Assembly (NCBI GenBank): GCA_013414765.1
Contig: CP058708.1
Location: 2,909,553 to 2,973,552, forward strand
Length of the DNA stretch: 64,000 nt
Source: Candidatus Accumulibacter cognatus
Lineage (GTDB): Bacteria > Pseudomonadota > Gammaproteobacteria > Burkholderiales > Rhodocyclaceae
Direction: 5' to 3'
Below are positions 48,216 to 58,392 of this stretch, piece by piece. The notes beneath the pieces were generated by a model. The model had not been told where the DNA came from. It searched no databases and saw only the letters and a list, made by a program, of their open reading frames with translations. Positions within the stretch are counted from its first letter, which is position 1. Each line of letters begins with the position of its first letter. The translations under genes were made by a program, and so were the position numbers.

Positions 48216-48965
48216 CGATTACCTTTGTGTCAGGCGCCGCTGCCGAGCAAGGGAGTTCTTGAAATGTAACACGTGCACGTGATCCTTACGCGCAGCTCCA
48301 GTCTGATCCAGCGGGGTGCGATTGAAAGTGTTGGTCAAAGTCCCTTGTTCAATGGAGATGCCTTGACATCAGTGATCACCCCTCCCCCCTCGCGGGGGAG
48401 GGGCATATCGGGACATCCCGACATTTTCATTCGCACCCGATCCAGCGCCACTTTCGATGTATCAATGTGGCACAATTTTGGTGAACAAGCTTGGCTTCCA
48501 GGATGACGTCGTCAATCATATCACGGGTCCCACGATGAACACCCCAGCAAGCCGCTCGTGATGCCTACCTCGCCCGCACCCTCGACTCCAAGCCGGAACG
48601 GTTGCCAATGCGATGTGCAACTTTAATGAGGCAGACCTGACCAAACCGGCTTGCACAAACAGCAGGCAGGTCTCATGAGAAATGGCGCCAGGCCCCGCTC
48701 ATCGTCAATGGTCTGCAGGCGTCATGGATGACCCGTTGCCTGCGGCGCCGGGTATCAGCGACAATGCCTCACATTGTTTCCAGAGCATCTGGCGCGGACA
48801 AGGTGCAAGAGTGCACACCGCTCTCCTGACGAAAGTGGCGGTTCCCTGGACCCCGGTAACGAACCGCCGGGGCCCGCAGGACGCCAAGGCGCGGTCATTG
48901 TCCGGACATGAGCCAACGGGTGCTGCGACGCTTCCCCAATCCATCCTATTTGAAAGAGACTCAAC
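48216..48965. other. 750-bp intergenic region with a dispersed repeat
   Basis: Between phrB and the flavin oxidoreductase gene. 48319-48402 is a family A repeat. The rest contains short open frames without ribosome sites or conserved motifs; I see no RNA gene. A GTG at 48966 with weak AAAGAGAC upstream starts the next gene. Confidence 0.5.
48319..48402. repeat. Dispersed intergenic repeat, family A, copy 1
   Basis: GCGATTGAAAGTG through TTGACATCAGTGATC, then a hairpin CCCCTCCCCC / GGGGGAGGGG. The same order of words, about three quarters identical over the first 60 bases, is found at 55743-55825, where an IS982 element has inserted in the G-rich part. Confidence 0.65.
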
Positions 48966-50063
48966 GTGTCTGAACTGTTCTCCCCTTTCCAACTGAAATC
49001 CGTCACCTTCCGCAATCGCATCGCCATACCTCCCATGTGCCAGTATTCCGCAACCGACGGCGTGGTTAACGACTGGCATCTGGCCCATTACACCGGGCTG
49101 GCCCGCGGCGGCGCCGGTCTGGTCACCGTCGAGGCGACGGCTGTCTCCCCGGAAGGACGTATTACTCCCGCTTGTACCGGACTCTGGAATGACGCCCAAG
49201 CTCAGGCACTGGCGCCCATTGCCGCTGCCATCAAGGCCAGCGGCGCGGTAGCGGGCATCCAGATCGGCCATGCGGGCCGCAAGGCCAGTGCCAACCGTCC
49301 TTGGGAGGGTGACGACCATATCCCTGAAGGAGATGCCCGTGGTTGGCAAACGCTCTCGCCTTCAGCCATTCCCTTTGGTGCCAACCTGCCGAAGATACCG
49401 CAGGCGATGAGTCTCGCGGACATTGCCCGGGTACGCGACGATTTTGTCGCGGCCGCCCGGCGAGCCTGGGAAGCCGGGTTTGAGTGGCTTGAACTGCACT
49501 TTGCCCATGGCTATCTTGGCCAGAGTTTCTTCTCGGTTCATGCCAACCAGCGCGACGACCCATATGGAGGCAACCTTGAGAATCGCAGCCGCTTCCTTCT
49601 CGAAACGCTGGTTGCCGTTCGCGCTGTCTGGCCTGAACATCTGCCGCTGACTGCCCGCTTCGGCGTGCTCGAATATGACGGCCGCGACACCGAAACGCTC
49701 GCCGAATCGATCGAACTGGCCAGGGCGTTCAAGCGTCACGGGCTGGACCTGCTGAGCGTCAGCGTCGGCTTCTCGACGCCGGACGCGGTCATCCCCTGGG
49801 GACCCGCCTTCCTTGCTCCGCTTGCCGAACAGATCCGTCGGGCAGCCGATATTCCGGTCGCGGCTGCCTGGGGTATCGATAACCCCGAAATCGCCCAAAA
49901 CACGATTGCCAGCGGCCAACTCGATCTGGTATTGGTGGGGCGCGCTCATCTGGCGAATCCTCATTGGCCTTATCTCGCCGCGTTGAAGCTCAAAGTCAAA
50001 CGCGCCGCCTGGATCCTGCCTTCCCCGTATGCCCACTGGCTGGAACGTTATCGGCCGGCGTAA
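48966..50063 (+). CDS. Old-yellow-enzyme-type NADH:flavin oxidoreductase (YqjM/xenobiotic reductase class)
   Basis: 365 residues from a GTG (VSELFSPFQLKSVTFRNRI). FMN TIM barrel. PPMCQYSATDG carries the regulatory Cys and Tyr of the YqjM class; GIQIGHAGRKAS has the substrate-binding His pair region, LHFAHGYLGQSFFSVHANQRDDPYGG is read as HGYL and N-R-DxYGG, and AAWGIDNPE and VLVGRAHLANP bind FMN phosphate. It should reduce activated C=C bonds with NAD(P)H. Physiological substrate unknown. Isolated between a repeat-bearing gap and the IS nest. Confidence 0.92.
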   Translation: MSELFSPFQLKSVTFRNRIAIPPMCQYSATDGVVNDWHLAHYTGLARGGAGLVTVEATAVSPEGRITPACTGLWNDAQAQALAPIAAAIKASGAVAGIQIGHAGRKASANRPWEGDDHIPEGDARGWQTLSPSAIPFGANLPKIPQAMSLADIARVRDDFVAAARRAWEAGFEWLELHFAHGYLGQSFFSVHANQRDDPYGGNLENRSRFLLETLVAVRAVWPEHLPLTARFGVLEYDGRDTETLAESIELARAFKRHGLDLLSVSVGFSTPDAVIPWGPAFLAPLAEQIRRAADIPVAAAWGIDNPEIAQNTIASGQLDLVLVGRAHLANPHWPYLAALKLKVKRAAWILPSPYAHWLERYRPA

Positions 50064-50270
50064 ACGGCCCGCCAGGTCATGATTGAGCAGCGCCCGCAAG
50101 GCACAGGTCGATCTCCGGTCGTTGCACGCGGACGGAATGACGTCAGTATTAACCAATAATGGGAAATCCCCCGGTTCTGCCGGGGGACTGGAAAATGTTT
50201 GACATTTCAGGGAGTCCATCAGGAAACTTCAAGCCGTGAGCTGCTAAGCACACGCCTATGGAGAATCCCG

Positions 50271-50302
50271 ATGGACGTGTCTGAAAGCCTAAGCCACTCT
50301 AA
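50271..50302 (+). pseudogene. IS200 TnpA, 5' fragment
   Basis: ATG with GGAG 8 nt upstream, encoding MDVSESLSHSK, the characteristic beginning of an IS200-type TnpA. The frame is then broken by the IS5-type left end. The continuation is at 54292-54491. Confidence 0.65.
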
Positions 50303-50407
50303 GAAGCTGTCCCAAAACTGAACTTTACTCGAAGAACCTGAAGTTTAGACACTCGCAATCGCCAGCGGATGCCGAAGACATTCCGGCGCCGCAAAAATTT
50401 TTCGAAG

Positions 50408-51923
50408 GTAACTACTCAGTAGCCCCAGCCAAGGGCTGTGTAGGTCAAGCCAAACGAGGCTGAGGAGGTTGGCCTTGGAAAGTCAGCGTGAGGGCGTGAA
50501 AGAGATTGCTCCCTTGCTTGTGCAGGGTGGCAAGGTAGGAACGGATCGTGCAAAAGGTATCGGCGCCGTTTCTGGTCCGGAAGCCGCCGGAGATCTTCTG
50601 TTTGACCTTCGGCATGCGAACCGCCTGCTCGGCAAGGTTGTTGGAGAACGGGACGCTGGGGTCAGAAGCGAAGCGCCAGACATCATCGGCATAGGTGCGC
50701 AAGCGCCAGAGGAGGTTGGTCGCCTTGCTCTGTCGTGTTCGTCCGCGCTTCCCCGATTTTTCCGCCTGCGGATTGAGGACCTCGCCTTCGCTGAGAATTT
50801 CGGTATATCGGTTACGCCACAGCGCAACGCGTTCGACGGGTAGCGAACCGCCCGCCTGGTTCACCTCATGGCAGGCAGCCACCAGAAGTTCGATCAGGCG
50901 GCCTGCCCAAGCCTGCTGGAGTTCCTCGAAAAGATAGGTCAATTCCCGCAGGTGATGGGCATTGCACAGCCCGTGCTTGCACAGCAGATCGCGGTAAGGT
51001 TTCCAGCCGTCGTGGATCAGTGTGCCCAGAAAGCCGGGGAGAATCCCCAGCGCATCGAAGGCCCGCTTGCCCCGTTTCTCGTGACAGCCGACCCAGGTGA
51101 GCGTCGCCGTCACCAGCGCGTGCATCCAGTGCAGCTTACCGGCCACCCGCATCCCGGTTTCGTCCGCATGAGCGACCTCGGCCGTTTGGATGGCTTCACC
51201 CATCAAGGCCACGGTCGGCGCCAGGCGAACAGCCGCCTCTTCGCTGGCCGCCAGCACCGTCGCCTCAGCCATCGGCAGGCCAAAGAAATCGCCCATCAAC
51301 GCCGCCGTGCGTTGTACCGGCATCATGTGGTGGTGCGTGAGATGAACAGCGGCAGCCATGGCCGCCGGACCATACTGCACCGGCGCAGAAATGCCGGGAG
51401 GAAACTCGCCGCGGCAAATCTTGCCGCAGGCGCACTGCGCCGCCAGAACCTGATGCTCCGTCACCTCGAAGCGCAACGGCGGCAAATCGAACACCTGACG
51501 GGTTTCGACCACCGATCTCTCGGGCAAGGGACGCTGGCACTCTGCGCAGTGCGACGGTGGCGCATGCGTCACGATCCGATCCGGTTCGGCAACCTTCTTG
51601 AGACCATGCCCCTGGTGCCCTTTCTGCCCGCCCGTCGGGCGTTCCCCGCATTTGCGCAGAGATTTGGGCTGCGGCTTGTTCAGACCGTCCGAAGACGGTG
51701 GCTTGCTCGAATTTCGACTGTTGGTCGCCAGCCGCGCTTCCAGTTCCGTGACCTTCAATTGAAGGGCTGTCACTTGCGCCGCCAGATCACGAACCAGCGC
51801 CCGCAGCGGCCACAGCTCACGGATCAACTGCTCCTTCTCGGCAACGCTCAGCTTTTCAAGGTCGGGAAGTTCGTCCATGCCGAATTAAAAGCATCAAGCG
51901 TGCCAGCCGACCTGAGTAGTTAC
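50408..51923 (-). mobile_element. IS66-type element (single-gene, ISBst12-like) with perfect 8-bp target duplication
   Basis: 1516 bp between inverted repeats GTAACTACTCAG (50408-50419) and CTGAGTAGTTAC (51912-51923). TTTCGAAG flanks both ends (50400-50407 and 51924-51931), the 8-bp duplication typical of IS66. Only tnpC is present, without tnpA or tnpB, as in the ISBst12 subgroup. Innermost and youngest member of the nest. Confidence 0.9.
50445..51878 (-). CDS. IS66-family transposase TnpC
   Basis: 477 residues, intact. N-terminal leucine-rich coiled coil (VAEKEQLIRELWPLRALVRDL), a Ser/Pro-rich NSRNSSKPPSSDG box, a zinc-finger-like region (HCAECQRPLP, CACGKIC), then the catalytic core: HADETGMRVAGKLHWMH, LIHDGWKPYR, CNAHHLREL and NNLAEQAVRMPKVKQKISGGF, giving the D, D and E. 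Probably functional. Confidence 0.93.
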   Translation of the reverse strand: MDELPDLEKLSVAEKEQLIRELWPLRALVRDLAAQVTALQLKVTELEARLATNSRNSSKPPSSDGLNKPQPKSLRKCGERPTGGQKGHQGHGLKKVAEPDRIVTHAPPSHCAECQRPLPERSVVETRQVFDLPPLRFEVTEHQVLAAQCACGKICRGEFPPGISAPVQYGPAAMAAAVHLTHHHMMPVQRTAALMGDFFGLPMAEATVLAASEEAAVRLAPTVALMGEAIQTAEVAHADETGMRVAGKLHWMHALVTATLTWVGCHEKRGKRAFDALGILPGFLGTLIHDGWKPYRDLLCKHGLCNAHHLRELTYLFEELQQAWAGRLIELLVAACHEVNQAGGSLPVERVALWRNRYTEILSEGEVLNPQAEKSGKRGRTRQSKATNLLWRLRTYADDVWRFASDPSVPFSNNLAEQAVRMPKVKQKISGGFRTRNGADTFCTIRSYLATLHKQGSNLFHALTLTFQGQPPQPRLA

Positions 51924-51970
51924 TTTCGAAGAAATACAAAAAAGACTTGACATGACGTGGGAATCGTGAG

Positions 51971-52021
51971 GTCGCCGCGCGCTGCTTGCGCAGGGTTCTC
52001 GCGCAAGCAGCGCGCGGCGAC
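51971..52021. repeat. Perfect 21-bp hairpin in the IS4-type leader
   Basis: The arms 51971-51991 and 52001-52021 are exact reverse complements (GTCGCCGCGCG...TGCGC) around a 9-nt loop AGGGTTCTC. It lies just upstream of the IS4-type transposase. It may limit read-through transcription from the host into the transposase, or hide its ribosome site. No T-run follows it. Confidence 0.75.
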
Positions 52022-52057
52022 CAATGAGGGATCGTTTTCGATCCTGGACTTTCCCTC

Positions 52058-53335
52058 ATGTCTCTCGCTGCCAACGTCTGCTTGCTACTCTCGGAATGGA
52101 TTTCCTTTCTCCTGGTGGCGGTGCCACCGCGTTCTCGCCGGACCTTCGTCGAACTGCTGATCGGTTGCCTGCTCAACCCGGAAGGCTGGGTCACGCGGGC
52201 CATCGGGGCCATTCGCCGGGAGGCACACTGGACCACCTATTACAAGCTCATCGAGCGAGCACAGGTGCCGGTCACGGAATTGTCGCTGCGTTTGTTACAG
52301 CTGGTGCTGACGGTGTGCCCCACCGAACTGGTCACCCTGATCCTCGACGATACGCTGGTTCTGCGCGGCGCGAAGTCCGGGCCGGGGATCAGTATCAAGC
52401 ACGATCACAACCACAAGGCCAATCGGCCGACCTTTCTGAACAGCCAGTGCTGGGTCACGCTGGCCCTGGTCGTGCGCGTCCGCCTGGGTTCGGCGCTGAC
52501 GGTGCCGATTCGCTCGTGGCTGCTCGAAGAATCGGGTCAGCGCGGCAAGCTCTGGGGGGCACGCCAACTGATGGACTCGGTCCGGGGGCACGTCCAGGGG
52601 GGGCGCTTGCTGATCGATGCCTGGTTCATGCGCCGCACCCTGATTCTTCCGTTGCTCGAACAACCGGTCCGCATCATCGGACAGGTGCGCCGCGATACGG
52701 CCTTGTTTCTGCCGCCGGAACCGGAGCCGAAACGCCGAGGCCGCCAGCGCAAGTACGGCCAGCGGATCGATGCGGCGAGGCTCGAAACCTTGCCGGTGCA
52801 GGAGATGGAGCTGATGCTGTACGGCAAGGTGCAGCGGGTTCGGGTGCGTTCGGTCATCGCTGTGGCGCGATTCCTGAAGGGGCTCCCGGTACGCGCGGTG
52901 TGGTGCGAGATGCTCCTGCCCGATCACACCTGGTCGCGCCCACGCCTGATTCTGGCCACCGAGACCGACCTGTCGGCCCAACAGGTCGTCGCGATCTACG
53001 CCGAGCGCTGGGCGATCGAGCCCTTGTTTCACCACCTGAAGCGCTGGTGGGGCGTGGCCAATCTGTGGCAGCAGTCGAAGGCCGCGCTGGAACTGTGGAT
53101 GCAGATTCGCTCCACGGCCTACGCGTTGACGCAACTGCTCGCCCTGCAGTTGTGGCCGTCCTTTCCGCTGATGGCCATCGCCCCCTGGAGAAAGGGTGCC
53201 ATGATCACTGCGGGCCTTTTCGCCCAGGGGCTGCGCATGCAATTTATCGGACTTCCCGTGCGCGACGCCTACGACTCGAAGTCCGGTCAATTCGTGATGC
53301 CTCTCCCCGGTCAGGATCAGCGTTTGCAGTGTTGA
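52058..53335 (+). CDS. IS4-type DDE transposase
   Basis: 425 residues, intact. Catalytic Asp in TLILDDTLVLRGAK, second Asp in RLLIDAWFMRR, and the IS4 signature Y-2x-R-3x-E-6x-K in YAERWAIEPLFHHLK. The 9-bp duplication at the element ends agrees with this family. An in-frame overlapping frame on the same strand is a shadow. Start could be slightly upstream at other codons, but MSLAANVCLLLSEW is a reasonable N-terminus. Confidence 0.88.
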   Translation: MSLAANVCLLLSEWISFLLVAVPPRSRRTFVELLIGCLLNPEGWVTRAIGAIRREAHWTTYYKLIERAQVPVTELSLRLLQLVLTVCPTELVTLILDDTLVLRGAKSGPGISIKHDHNHKANRPTFLNSQCWVTLALVVRVRLGSALTVPIRSWLLEESGQRGKLWGARQLMDSVRGHVQGGRLLIDAWFMRRTLILPLLEQPVRIIGQVRRDTALFLPPEPEPKRRGRQRKYGQRIDAARLETLPVQEMELMLYGKVQRVRVRSVIAVARFLKGLPVRAVWCEMLLPDHTWSRPRLILATETDLSAQQVVAIYAERWAIEPLFHHLKRWWGVANLWQQSKAALELWMQIRSTAYALTQLLALQLWPSFPLMAIAPWRKGAMITAGLFAQGLRMQFIGLPVRDAYDSKSGQFVMPLPGQDQRLQC

Positions 53336-53500
53336 GACGTCTCGCCCAGCGTCGATCGGCGCTGGGGAATGCCATTGTCTTGAAAGCCATCGCTCGCCTC
53401 CGCGAAAACCCGGCGAGCGGAGCACGCGTGTGTCTAAACTTCAGTCGAAGAACTTCCTCGATAGCGGCTTTTGGACTACTGATTGGGTGAGGAAGAGAGG

Positions 53501-54276
53501 ATGTATCCGAGCGATTTGAGCGATAAGCAATGGGCCAAACTCGAGCCGCTACTTTGCCAGCGGACAACTGGGAAGCATGCGGGAGGGCGGCCGCGCCTGT
53601 ATCCGCTGCGGCGTGTGGTCGATGCGGTGCTGTACGTCGTCAAGACAGGCTGTCAATGGCGACAGCTACCGAAAGACTTTCCGCCCTGGAAATCGGTGTA
53701 CGAAGAATTCAGGCGATGGCGTCGAACCGGTTTGTGGCGCGCATTAGCCGCGCGCTTCGCAAGGAGCTTCGCCAGAAACTGGGGCGTTCGGAACAGCCCA
53801 CGGTTGCCATCATTGACTCGCAGTCCGTCAAGAGGACCTTGAAAGGGGACGGCCGGGGCTATGATGCGGGGAAAAAGATCAAGGGGCGCAAGCGCCACAT
53901 CGCCGTCGACACCCAGGGTTTGTTGCGGGCTGTGGGGGTCCATTCAGCAGGTATTCAGGATCGTGTGGGTGCCCCAGTCTTGCTGCTTCAACTGGCCGCG
54001 TTGTGCTGTACGATCCGGACGATATTTGCCGATAGTGCCTATACCAGTACCTTGGTGGAATGGGTTCGTGCCCTGTTCGACTGGACGCTGACCATTGTCA
54101 AGCGGACTGAAGCTCATCGCTTCGTGGTCTTTCCCAAATGCTGAGTGGTGGAACGTACCTTTGACTGGCTTGGCTGTTCTCGTCGTCTGTCCAAGGATGA
54201 TGAGGTCCGCCCGGACACCGCTGAAGCCATGGTCCATATTGCTGCTGCTCACCTCATGCTCCGGCGCCTCGCGTAG
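53501..54276 (+). pseudogene. IS5-family transposase, frameshifted and nonsense-mutated
   Basis: Begins MYPSDLSDKQWAKLEPLL at 53501. The first frame carries the DNA-binding and early catalytic region (YVVKTGCQWRQLPKDFPPWKSVYEEFRRWRR) and runs on to 53842. The homology continues in the +2 frame from about 53750 (RKELRQKLGR...IIDSQSVKRT, GYDAGKKIKGRKRHIAVDTQG), which may be the programmed frameshift of this group. At 54142-54144 a TGA interrupts the block VVERTFDWLGCSRRLSKDDE, and the frame then runs to TAG at 54274. The stop within the last catalytic block argues that it is dead. Confidence 0.8.
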
Positions 54277-54291
54277 TTTTTGGACAGGTTC

Positions 54292-54491
54292 CAAGTCAAA
54301 AATCACATCGTGTTCATCCCGAAGTGCCGACGCCCTACGCGGTATGGGTAGCTGCGTCGCTACCTCTGGGAGGTGTTTCCGCAAACTGGCTGAGCAGAGG
54401 GAGAGTCGGATCGAAGAGGGGCATCTGATGCAGGATCACGTACACATGCTGATCTCGACTCCATTGAAATACGCGGTCTCGCAAGTAGCCC
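54292..54491 (+). pseudogene. IS200 TnpA, 3' fragment
   Basis: Contains HIVFIPKCRRPTRYG, then LRRYLWEVFRKLAEQRESRIEEGHL (in pieces), QDHVHMLISTPLKYAVSQV, the HUH region of a Y1 transposase. The reading frame is broken by an in-frame TAG and frameshifts, and the protein ends before the catalytic Tyr. At 54492 a REP sequence begins abruptly. It continues the gene begun at 50271. Confidence 0.75.
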
Positions 54492-54521
54492 GTAGGTTGG
54501 GGTGAGCTTGCGAACCCCAAC
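54492..54521. repeat. REP sequence, left copy
   Basis: GTAG followed by arms GTTGGGGT and ACCCCAAC around a 10-nt loop. The GTAG tetranucleotide at the foot of an imperfect palindrome is the mark of REPs mobilised by RAYT enzymes. An identical 30-bp copy lies inverted at 55082-55111. Confidence 0.85.
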
Positions 54522-54529
54522 ATTTCCCC

Positions 54530-55054
54530 TCAGTCGCCCAACGCGCCCTCGTCACCCCTATCCGACGCCCACTCTGCGCACAGCCAACCGAGCCGAACAT
54601 AGCGGTGAATCGACGAATACGGCCACTCGACCGCCCGTGTGGCCAACCCATGCTTGACGGGATTGAAATGGATGGAATCCACATGGCGCGCGAAGTCGCC
54701 TTCGTCCCGAATCAGATGCTCCCAGTAGCGGCGCTGCCAGATATCGCGTTCCCACTTGGCTATGCGGCTTGGCGAACGGCGTTCCGTCGGAAGAATTTGC
54801 CTGGAGAATCCTGCCTTGATGAGCACCCAGCGCTTGGCAAAGTCCGCATCGCCAGCCGGTAGCGTCCACAAGGCCTGTAGGTGATCGGGGAGAACGATCA
54901 TCGCGTCGATGTGGAATGGGTGCGCGTCCCTGACACGCCGCAAGGTTTAGCGTCAGGCGTCAATAAGCTCGATGAGGACGCTCGACTGGCGGTCGGCGAG
55001 GTTGACCGTGACAAAGTACATCCCCCCGGCGACTTTGGCCCGGCGATAGCGCAT
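54530..55054 (-). pseudogene. REP-associated tyrosine transposase (RAYT), inactivated
   Basis: Starts MRYRRAKVAGGMYFVTVNLADR at 55054 and continues through HPFHIDAMIVLPDHLQALWTLP, FAKRWVLIKAGFSRQI and FNPVKHGLATRAVEWPYSS. Two in-frame stops, TGA at 54955-54953 and TAA at 54949-54947, split the gene near codon 34. The HUH motif reads DHLQ where DHLH is usual, and the position that commonly carries the catalytic Tyr (HVDSIHFNP) is Ser. Both flanking REPs are intact, so the gene has decayed while its substrate has not. Confidence 0.8.
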
Positions 55055-55081
55055 CGCGAAATGATAGAGGATTGCTTGGCC

Positions 55082-55111
55082 GTTGGGGTTCGCAAGCTCA
55101 CCCCAACCTAC
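55082..55111. repeat. REP sequence, right copy (inverted)
   Basis: Reverse complement of 54492-54521 over all 30 bases, ending in CTAC. Together the two form a cassette around the RAYT gene, with the GTAG ends facing outwards. The right edge cuts a caspase-like gene. Confidence 0.85.
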
Positions 55112-55597
55112 GGCGCTGCACCCCAAGGCGCTCAAGCTGGTCTGCACGCCGTGCCCGGCAAAGAAAAAGACCACCTGATCGCCACCGGTAATCCGGTCCA
55201 CGAGCGTTTCCTCCGCCTTGACCATGCCTCGGTGGTTGAGGTTGTGGTGCTGCAGCACGTCGAATCCCGCAGTCTTGAGTTCGCGCGCGATGGCTGTTGC
55301 GTCGTTGCCGGCCTTTTCCAGTTTGGATGCTTTCTCGTAGGCATCGTTGCCGATGACCAGCGCGATCCGTCGGCTGCCCGGCGCGCCTTGTTGGGCGAGG
55401 TTGCGGGCCGGGGTCGAGGGCTCGGCCGGAGGGCTGGCCTCCGCGGCCGGGGTTTCGGACTGAGGCTGGAAGAATTTGCCGAGCGAATCGAACAGGTTGG
55501 GCGTCTGCTCGGCGGCGTATGCGCAAACCAGCAGCAAGATGGCCATGGCCGCGATCACCGAGACACGGAGTAGAGACAACAGGCGGCGTCCAGGCAT
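55112..55597 (-). pseudogene. Secreted caspase-like (peptidase C14) gene, 3' half lost
   Basis: 162 codons remain from the ATG at 55597. A hydrophobic signal (LLSLLRVSVIAAMAILLLVCAYAA) is followed by a Pro/Glu-rich linker and a caspase p20 fold: RRIALVIGNDAYEKA, LEKAGNDATAIARELKTAGFDV and VVFFFAGHGVQ with the catalytic His149. The catalytic Cys block should follow but is replaced by REP sequence. The open frame continues by chance through the REP into the RAYT start; that join is not a real fusion. The catalytic Cys is absent from what remains. Confidence 0.75.
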
Positions 55598-55742
55598 GGA
55601 GGGAAGCCGTTCAGGTGGTCAGGGAAGGCGATGTTCCCCAGGCGCATCGCCCCGAGTCTTCCTGGTCGCCGCAACCAGTTCGACGAACCAGGCGACATTT
55701 ATTGACAATGCGTCATCGCAAGACAATCTTGACAATAAGGGG

Positions 55743-55825
55743 GTGATTGAGGGTGCTGGTCGAAGCGCCTTGTTCGATCGAGAGGCGTTGACATCGGTGA
55801 TCGCTTCTTCCCCCGTGCGGGGGGG
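55743..55825. repeat. Dispersed intergenic repeat, family A, copy 2
   Basis: GTGATTGAGGGTG through TTGACATCGGTGATC and a G-rich tract. It matches 48319-48402 and is interrupted at its G tract by the IS982-type element; its likely continuation resumes at 56882. Confidence 0.65.
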
Positions 55826-56881
55826 CTTAAAAGTGTAGGTAAACGTCAGTTCGGGATAAGTTTGGGAGACGGCGAGAGCCGGCGGAAGTCCTGAAGCGGT
55901 AGTCTGGGCTTGTTGGGCATCAGGCCATAGGCGATGAGGCCAGCCAGCAAATTGACGGCGAAATGGATGGGCGAGCGAGGGCGGGTATGCTCGATCTGAC
56001 AGAGGTTTTTCAGTTCGTCGATGACGGTTTCCACGAGGGATCGCTGCCGTAGCATCGCCTCGTCGAAGGGAGACAGGGCGACGGGCTTCCTGTTTTTCCT
56101 GACCTTGGTCACGAAGTCGATGCCGAGATCCTTCAGAAAGGGGGTCAGCCACTGGGCAATATCGCCCTTGTCCGCATACCGCTTGCCAAAGAGCCGCTCG
56201 GCAAAGTCGCACAAGGGCTTGCGGTCATCGACATTGCCTGGGGTCAGCTTGACGCCCAGCAGTTCGCCCAAGTGATTGATCACCCAATGGAGTTTGAAAC
56301 CGAAATACCAGCCGGTCGAACTCTTGCCGCGCGCCGCCATGCCCTGGAACACCCGGTGGCGAGAAATCCGCAAGTTCTTGCAGACAGAGAGAGGAGTCGA
56401 ATCCGCAATCGACACCCCGGAGCACTTGCCCGTGAGTTCCTCGAACAGGGCGGCCAGGGCGATCGCGCAGCGTGGCAGCAAATCGACACATCGCTGATAG
56501 GTGGGTAGTCGGGGAAACTCGCTACGCAGGTATCGGCCAACAGGGTTCAGATAGAAGGATTTAAACTGTCGGTAGCGAATCTGGTGGAATAGCACGACCA
56601 GCGTCATCAACTCCGGCACGGATAGGCTGCCTTTCCTCGACCGATGGCGCTTGCCATCGGTCAGCAGCCGGGCGTTGAGTTGAGGTTCGAACGCTTCGTA
56701 AAAGTCGTCCATCCGGCAGTCAGTCTCGGTCAGATCGTCCATGATGAGGCCTCCGTGTACGGGGTTGATCAGGTCATGCACTCAATGAATCAAGACAACG
56801 TTGACGATCATCCGTTTCTCATCAATGGGTTAGCGCCACATTTTTGGCCTCGTTATCCCGAGCTGACGTTACACTTGTAAG
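55826..56881 (-). mobile_element. IS982-type element
   Basis: About 1056 bp. The ends CTTAAAAGTGTA (55826) and, read inwards from 56881, CTTACAAGTGTA are inverted repeats that continue as ACGTCAG(T/C)TCGGGATAA on both sides after a 3-bp gap. The flanks are G-runs, so the target duplication cannot be read. It sits inside a family A repeat. Confidence 0.8.
55846..56742 (-). CDS. IS982-family transposase
   Basis: 298 residues from MDDLTETDCRMDDFYEAF (ATG 56742), intact. Early block SRKGSLSVPELMTLVVLFHQ, then VSIADSTPLSVCKN (first Asp), KRYADKGDIAQW (second Asp), and VETVIDELKNLCQIEHTRPRS (Glu). The RYRQFKSFYLNPV segment is also typical. Its start ATG could also be at 56781. Likely functional. 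Confidence 0.92.
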   Translation of the reverse strand: MDDLTETDCRMDDFYEAFEPQLNARLLTDGKRHRSRKGSLSVPELMTLVVLFHQIRYRQFKSFYLNPVGRYLRSEFPRLPTYQRCVDLLPRCAIALAALFEELTGKCSGVSIADSTPLSVCKNLRISRHRVFQGMAARGKSSTGWYFGFKLHWVINHLGELLGVKLTPGNVDDRKPLCDFAERLFGKRYADKGDIAQWLTPFLKDLGIDFVTKVRKNRKPVALSPFDEAMLRQRSLVETVIDELKNLCQIEHTRPRSPIHFAVNLLAGLIAYGLMPNKPRLPLQDFRRLSPSPKLIPN

Positions 56882-56911
56882 GGGGAGGGGCGATTTGTGA
56901 ATCGCTGACGC
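56882..56911. repeat. Repeat tail, GATTTGTGAATCGCTGAC block
   Basis: GGGGAGGGGCGATT...GAATCGCTGAC resembles the 3' tail of family B copies at 6810-6833 and 16995-17016. Position suggests that families A and B are parts of one longer element, split here by the IS982 insertion. The rest of the gap to 57010 holds nothing recognisable. Confidence 0.5.
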
Positions 56912-57010
56912 GATTTGCACCCATCAAGGTTGTCTCACACCGCCCGCACAGGCGAGACCGGGAACGGCGACCCATCCGGCGCCTGGTAACCGGCCGCGCC
57001 GCGACGGGAA

Positions 57011-57559
57011 CTAGCGACGCTCGTAAATCACGAAATCAAAGGCCGGGATACTCCCGCGAGTGGCCGTGGTCGGCGCCTGGGCGTTGCCGGTGCGACGGGA
57101 GATTTCCCGCCACTCGGCAAGCGAAACTTCGGGGAAGAAGCGGTCTCCCGGCGCATTCTCTGCGACTTCGGTCAGGTACAGACGTTTGGCCAGCGGCAGT
57201 GCCTGACGATACAGCGCCTCGCCACCCACGATGAAGACCTCGGCGGCGTCGCCTGCCAGAGCAATTGCCTCTGCGAGCGATCGGGCCGGCGTCGCGCCGC
57301 TCGGCAGATGATCGGGATTGCCGCTGACGACGATGTTGTGCCGCCCGGGCAATGGGCGAAAGGCGGTCGGCAGCGATTCCCAGGTCTTTCTGCCCATGAT
57401 CACCGGCTTGCCGCGCGTCGTTTCGCGAAAATTTCGCAGGTCTTCCGGTAGGTGCCACAGCAGTTGCTGGTCCTTGCCAATCGCGCGGTTGCGGGCAACG
57501 ACCGCGATCAGCGAGAGGATGGGGAGCCGTCCTGCTGCTGCCGGAGCCTGCGCACGCAT
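57011..57559 (-). CDS. folA: Dihydrofolate reductase
   Basis: 182 residues. NADPH-dependent reduction of dihydrofolate. LPILSLIAVVARNRAIGKDQQLLWHLPEDL (opened by the Ala/Val segment and the catalytic-acid region WHLPEDL), PVIMGRKTWESLP, GRHNIVVSG and VFIVGGEALYRQAL are the family blocks. The first 11 residues are extra. It lies 11 nt downstream of thyA, an operon that regenerates the dihydrofolate made by thymidylate synthase. Confidence 0.96.
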   Translation of the reverse strand: MRAQAPAAAGRLPILSLIAVVARNRAIGKDQQLLWHLPEDLRNFRETTRGKPVIMGRKTWESLPTAFRPLPGRHNIVVSGNPDHLPSGATPARSLAEAIALAGDAAEVFIVGGEALYRQALPLAKRLYLTEVAENAPGDRFFPEVSLAEWREISRRTGNAQAPTTATRGSIPAFDFVIYERR

Positions 57560-57570
57560 CGGCCGCAGGC

Positions 57571-58392
57571 CTAGACGGCGACTACAGCCGCGATGTGCGG
57601 GTGTGGATCGTAGCCTTCGAGCACAAAGTCTTCGAAGCGGAAACTGAACAGGTCGCGCACTTCCGGCTGCAGTCGCATCGTCGGCAAGGGGCGCGGGGCG
57701 CGTGTCAGTTGCAGGAGCGCCTGTTCAAAATGATTGCTGTAAAGGTGCGCGTCGCCCAACGTGTGCACGAAATCGCCTGGCCGATAGCCGCAGACCTGTG
57801 CCAACATCAGGGTCAGCAGTGCGTAGGATGCGATGTTGAAGGGCACGCCGAGAAAAATGTCGGCGCTGCGCTGATAGAGCTGGCAGGAAAGCTTCGCCCG
57901 GCGATCCCCCTCTGAATCGGCAGGCGGCGCGACGTACAACTGGAAGAGCACATGACACGGTGGCAGCGCCATGCGCTCGATGTCCCCCGGATTCCAGGCT
58001 GTGACCAGGTGTCGGCGCGAGTCGGGGTTGTTCTTCAGGCCGTCGACGAGTCGTGCGATCTGGTCGATTTCACTGCCCTGCGCAGTCTGCCAGTGACGCC
58101 ACTGCCGACCATAGACGGGGCCGAGATCGCCGTTGCGGTCGGCCCATTCATCCCAGATGCGGACGCCGTTCTCCTGCAGGTAGCGCACGTTGGTGTCGCC
58201 CTGCAGGAACCACAACAACTCGTGAATGATCGATCGCAAATGCAATTTCTTGGTGGTCAGCAGGGGGAAGCCGACACCCAGGTCGAAACGCATCTGCCAG
58301 CCGAACACCGAGCGCGTGCCGATGCCGGTGCGGTCTGCCTTGGGGGTCCCCTGTTCAAGGACGTGCCGCATCAGGTCGAGATACTGCTGCAT
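57571..58392 (-). CDS. thyA: Thymidylate synthase
   Basis: 273 residues, the expected size plus a short loop. Methylates dUMP to dTMP with methylenetetrahydrofolate. [19 protein letters not shown], the catalytic Cys in [13 protein letters not shown], the phosphate Arg in [11 protein letters not shown] and [20 protein letters not shown] (GVPFNIA block) are present. ATG at 58392, first gene of thyA-folA. Confidence 0.97.

Follow-up and report, generated by a model that had tools for sequence, protein, structure and literature searches.

The window analyzed here is a 64,000-nucleotide stretch of the single-contig, 5.17-Mb genome of Candidatus Accumulibacter cognatus. Positions 50153-54488 of this window are occupied by insertion sequences nested four levels deep, with an IS200-type remnant containing an IS5-type element, which contains an IS4-like element, which in turn contains an IS66 element. 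A first-pass annotation of the sequence had proposed these same four levels over 50161-54491, and all four were found; its limits for the IS200 layer were moved to ~50153 and ~54488, the right end of that element being lost. The annotation missed that the nest belongs to a 6.9-kb pile-up that also holds a REP-flanked RAYT gene, a fragment of a caspase gene and an IS982 element. The left neighbor of the nest is a flavin-oxidoreductase gene (PF00724). The features are as follows.

50149..50152, + strand: TTAA, the tetranucleotide that IS200 probably targeted, located 5' of its left end within a conserved TTAACC
50153..50302, + strand: left part of the IS200-type remnant, comprising the left end and the first 10 tnpA codons (ATG at 50271), through the left TAA
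50300..50302, + strand: putative left copy of the IS5 duplication, TAA
50303..54291, + strand: IS5-type element, 873 bp once its insert is removed; a frameshift and an in-frame stop disrupt the transposase
50329..50337, + strand: left copy of the 9-bp IS4-like duplication TCGAAGAAC, exact, abutting the element end
50338..53444, + strand: IS4-like element with ends CTGAAGTTTAGACAC, 1583 bp once its insert is removed
50400..50407, + strand: left copy of the 8-bp IS66 duplication TTTCGAAG, exact, abutting the IS66 end
50408..51923, + strand: 1516-bp IS66 element whose ends, GTAACTACTCAG, are perfect over 12 bp
50445..51878, - strand: IS66 transposase, 477 aa, intact frame
51924..51931, + strand: right copy of TTTCGAAG, exact, abutting the IS66 end
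52058..53335, + strand: 425-aa IS4-like transposase with an intact frame and a YREK motif at residue 314
53445..53453, + strand: right copy of TCGAAGAAC, exact, abutting the element end
54292..54294, + strand: putative right copy of the IS5 duplication, CAA, with one base changed
54292..54488, + strand: right part of the IS200-type remnant, tnpA continued with its frame broken, truncated before the right end
54490..55113, no strand assigned: REP-flanked RAYT unit with 32-bp perfectly inverted arms and in-frame stops

The innermost element is a member of the IS66 family, as indicated by a transposase that matches PF03050 (1.4e-45) and scores 294 bits on NF033517, well above the cut-off of 180. 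Like other members of this family (NF033517), it combines a DDE_Tnp_IS66 transposase that has a zinc-finger domain with 8-bp target duplications and with GTAA ends, which are an IS66 family trait. Unlike the family at large it has a transposase gene alone, as this frame takes 1434 of the 1516 bp and leaves no room for the accessory genes tnpA and tnpB, both of which are absent. These accessory genes are optional in the IS66 family, where a transposase-only type, ISBst12, is known. The genome has 15 matches to the element, five of them full-length, and four of these five are identical with the remaining one a single base apart. Four of the five full-length copies also lie between 8-bp duplications of their own that differ from copy to copy (ACCCGCCG, CAATTCGG and TCTTCACA outside of the nest). 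The copy that has no target duplication (L002, G000:C1:3049272-3053787) is identical to that in the window and is located 12.8 kb from another copy in the opposite orientation; it may mark a rearrangement.

Four identical IS66 copies are the type of repeat that can mislead an assembly, and a false nest could in principle have been created by repeats that were wrongly joined. We regard this as very improbable, given that the genome assembly consists of one contig with a listed completeness of 100% and that both of the inner insertions have site-specific duplications, which a misjoin would not create. As the first-pass annotation had stated, these two duplications, of 9 and 8 bp, are exact and directly abut the element ends, and the transposase frames of the two inner elements are open. 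Among 200,000 random pairs of flanks drawn from the window, matches over 8 bp occurred in 5 and matches over 9 bp in 3.

The IS4-like element that surrounds IS66 has ends in which 18 of 19 bases pair. When the IS66 element and one copy of TTTCGAAG are removed, 1582 of the resulting 1583 bases match an intact copy at G000 4649056, and the same reconstructed sequence is only 5 bases from a second intact copy at G000 2055519; further copies in the genome include one at 91%, with the others interrupted or partial. The site at which IS66 inserted is uninterrupted in four other IS4-like copies of this genome (L017, L018, L019 and the interrupted copy L020/L141). These copies argue against the alternative that layers arrived together, for example by the IS4-like element moving in already carrying IS66 as one 3.1-kb unit. 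Movement of such a unit is conceivable, as the IS4-like ends and transposase are still intact around IS66. However, the four continuous copies, and the failure of the innermost junction to find an exact match in genome_contigs (a collection from which records of or near this genome are possibly absent), make joint arrival unlikely relative to separate insertion of the two elements.

Duplications of 8-9 bp flank four of the seven IS4-like copies that have both ends, with none at the other three; L171 and L172 have no full ends and are left out of this count. The duplications at the other copies are GCTTCTAA, ACATCGAAA and TGGCAGTAA. We considered a common target motif for the two inner insertions, as TCGAAG occurs in both of their duplications and TCGAA is shared by ACATCGAAA, and took this overlap as chance since the other duplications have no common word by eye. 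Ahead of its transposase gene, the leader of the IS4-like element also contains a perfect inverted repeat (51970-52022) of 22 bp around a 9-base loop, and this repeat is identical in three of six other copies (L168, L182 and L141, not L196, L169 or L170). The copy in L141 (G000:C1:1468900-1476000), which is flanked by TGGCAGTAA, is itself split by an element coding for a 695-aa serine-recombinase-like protein, for which the best model is XisF at 98.6 bits, below its cut-off of 375.

The family assignment of this element is less straightforward, as the label IS4-type that was given to it in the first-pass annotation agrees with the other features tested, while the NCBIfam name for its transposase is IS701. 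Specifically, the transposase scores 469 bits on the IS701 model NF049999, well over the cut-off of 170, but only 46.8 bits on the other IS701 model (NF033540, cut-off 150), and 26-42 bits on three IS4 models, all under their cut-offs. In the published account of the split between these families, the YREK motif is incomplete in IS701 elements and their duplications are 4 bp long, while IS4 elements have a complete motif and duplications of about 10 bp (PMC2266710), with a range by subgroup of 7-13 bp, or about one helix turn. The transposase in the nest has a complete YREK motif in region C1 (YAERWAIEPLFHHLK, at residue 314), and the element makes duplications of 8-9 bp and not 4 bp. When set against the ISPepr1-like subgroup of IS4 as characterized in Table 1 of De Palmenaer 2008 (PMC2266710), the two are alike in the complete YREK motif, in length (1583 bp against a range of 1500-1600) and in ends, with CTGAAGTTT fitting YT-AA-YTT. 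They differ in that the end has C and not A at base 13, that duplications are 8-9 bp as opposed to 7-8 bp, and that the transposase carries the IS701 name of NF049999.

Relatives of this transposase on Acidithiobacillus plasmids, which are 47-50% identical to it, exhibit the same combination of features. One that was scored on NF049999 reached 475 bits, all three have the full YREK motif, and two of the three plasmid regions, which apparently represent one site, have the end CTGAAGTTTAGACA in common with the IS4-like element together with an 8-bp duplication. Element ends were also sought in the third plasmid region and were not found there. Judged by its motif, the length of its duplications and its CT ends, the element thus appears to fit the name IS4-type better than IS701. 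We give even odds to the further possibility that the NF049999 group is misfiled under IS701; a complete YREK motif, duplications of 8-9 bp and CTGAAGTTTAGACA ends in common would then set it apart as a distinct subgroup of the IS4 family, with members in Acidithiobacillus as well as this genus.

The two outer layers have a different character, and both of their transposase frames were found to be broken as had been claimed. The IS5-type element resembles the IS5 family (NF033580) in its 873-bp length, in a probable TNA target and in having DUF4096 and DDE_Tnp_1 domains, which are recovered on two pieces (PF13340 at 2.8e-30 and PF01609 at 1.2e-17); these pieces score 100.7 and 67.2 on NF033580, each under the whole-protein cut-off of 110. 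It differs from the family in its broken transposase and in having no close intact relative among the matches listed. Its terminal inverted repeats are of equal length, with 14 of 16 end bases pairing, and are flanked by TAA at the left end and CAA at the right end. In distant relatives the right end is directly followed by TNA, at 7 of 7 loci in Thiorhodospira and 14 of 14 in Bradyrhizobium (counted on right flanks alone), so the TAA/CAA pair is probably a 3-bp TNA duplication with one later change. This putative duplication is an addition to the earlier annotation.

No uninterrupted IS5 copy that spans the point of IS4-like insertion was found among the alignments to the own genome, to 28 genus genomes, to 395 sampled family genomes (E limit 1e-20; the own genome is counted in both sets), to plasmids and to genome_contigs. 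The first 180 bases of the IS5 query are covered only by the window in the genus and family-sample alignments, with other matches being partial, as is the case for G035 and G389. The IS5 relatives in genome_contigs (80 of 531 loci, among the matches listed) have 43-59% amino acid identity over a 122-aa piece. The join between the IS5-type and IS4-like elements consequently rests on the TCGAAGAAC duplication and the terminal repeats.

The outermost layer is recognized as IS200 (Y1 transposase, NF033573) by a tnpA frame and left end that match intact copies in the genus, and by the location of that left end after TTAA. Four other copies (L142, L143, L144 and a second copy of this genome in L037) have TTAACC in common with it, and their upstream flanks differ. 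IS200 elements characteristically insert behind a tetranucleotide and make no target duplication; in the window TTAA accompanies the left end, and the right end is absent. The transposase piece matches PF01797 (8e-8) and scores 32.9 bits on NF033573, a value below the cut-off of 55 for what is a partial piece, and its translation contains HVH, in keeping with the HUH motif of a Y1 transposase. Unlike IS200 proper, the copy in the nest is interrupted, frameshifted and truncated: a stop and a frameshift lie in tnpA, and its 3' part, where the catalytic tyrosine would be located, is gone. Excision of the IS5-type element in silico joins IS200 flanks that are continuous, at 89%, with the uninterrupted copies of G005 and G020 across query bases 1-335 (of 339). 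Weaker copies of nearly full span are present in G001 (81%), G010 (79%) and G014 (70%). In the IS200 alignment G005, G020 and G001 all run continuously through the IS5 site; it omits G010, in which no anchor could be located, and G014, whose row fell in the wrong place. The check proposed in the first-pass annotation, to remove the inserts and compare across the joins, thus gave the expected match at two of the three joins: the IS4-like element freed of IS66 and IS200 freed of IS5. Just to the right of the IS5 insertion, the window is missing 7 bases that are present in intact IS200 copies. The second own-genome copy (L037, G000:C1:27000-37500) is also split, by IS1634-type and IS630-type elements, and has an IS66-type gene nearby.

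To the right, the IS200 remnant ends at ~54488 against the left arm of the RAYT unit, and a cut caspase-domain gene lies on the other side of that unit. The REP arms (54490-54521 and 55082-55113) are 32 bp long and 100% complementary, and the RAYT gene between them scores 141.6 bits on NF047646 (cut-off 80) and contains in-frame stops. A RAYT gene between two inverted GTAG-headed REPs is a known layout (PMC2817692), and the unit in the window has this arrangement. It differs from the described REP-associated tyrosine transposase units in that an exact search, with no mismatches allowed, matched the searched REP core in this genome only at the two flanking arms, and in that the RAYT frame has stops. 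Beyond the unit are the caspase (Peptidase_C14, PF00656) domain gene fragment, cut at the REP (55113-55597), and an IS982-type element (55843-56869; transposase NF033520) with inverted ends ACGTCAG..CTGACGT, which its flanks AAGTGTA/TACACTT prolong with a small gap on the left.

Among the 27 other genus genomes, G027 has the best match to the flavin-oxidoreductase gene (94%), and in G027 the sequence from 50085 to 56979 is absent at this place, with the segments matching 48439-50084 and 56980-57999 located 121 bases apart. The gene to the right of this gap, as scanned in G027, belongs to the dihydrofolate-reductase family (best models below cut-off) and is followed by thymidylate synthase. Fragments of IS5, IS4-like and IS66 elements occur elsewhere in G027. 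The absence means that the 6.9 kb represent either accumulation in, or loss from, one of two close lineages, and we favor accumulation because the nested elements are young.

This absence also bears on the alternative that the nest serves a function, as a composite element or a regulatory device, and is more than a pile-up. Two open transposase frames are all that speaks for such a device. Among the frames scanned in the nest none was recognized besides transposases, the two outer elements are broken, and the whole region is missing at this place in G027, so we put the chance of a functional device close to nil. The window also has no Rfam matches at gathering score, no tRNAs and one low-scoring tandem repeat, none of which bears on the nest.

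We conclude, with a probability of about 0.93, that four different transposable elements landed successively at a single spot. Their order of arrival, which the first-pass annotation had described as readable from the sequence, is given by the nesting as IS200, then IS5, then IS4-like, then IS66. The inner two layers are young, as their transposase genes are open and the rest of the genome has near-identical copies of both, which are signs of recent movement, while the outer two are decayed. Counted against sequential insertion are the absence, from the alignments described above, of an uninterrupted IS5 copy across the IS4-like insertion point, the imperfect TAA/CAA pair, the 7 missing IS200 bases and the lost IS200 right end, as well as the lack of a duplication at one of five IS66 and three of seven full-length IS4-like copies. 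In the proposed series of events, an IS200-type element would have entered after TTAA in the spacer behind the flavin-oxidoreductase gene, and an IS5-type element then split its transposase gene after codon 10, probably with a 3-bp TNA duplication. The IS4-like element subsequently entered the IS5 leader and produced the 9-bp duplication, and IS66 entered the IS4-like leader and produced the 8-bp duplication; the outer two elements decayed afterwards. Dead elements in a spacer may provide harmless landing sites, which would be sufficient to explain the pile-up.

Nesting is common among mobile elements. One survey of such elements in prokaryotes flagged ~434,000 of 1.8 million recombinase islands as nested in the sense of having more than one recombinase (PMC8989519), and separation of nested elements is a routine step of one annotation pipeline, as outlined in PMC3852290. 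Other interrupted copies exist in this genome as well, namely the second IS200 copy and one IS4-like copy. Our search of the open literature, which covered titles and the starts of abstracts, yielded no account of such an IS nest in this host. Nothing points to a function beyond transposition, nor to a new mechanism, and the nest is an ordinary process that is unusually well preserved.

For the classification of these elements, the locus presents a case in which the family-model name, IS701, conflicts with published criteria that separate IS701 from IS4. For the organism, the nest preserves the sequence in which four transposition events took place at one spot, and it points to two young element families within one genome that are probably active.
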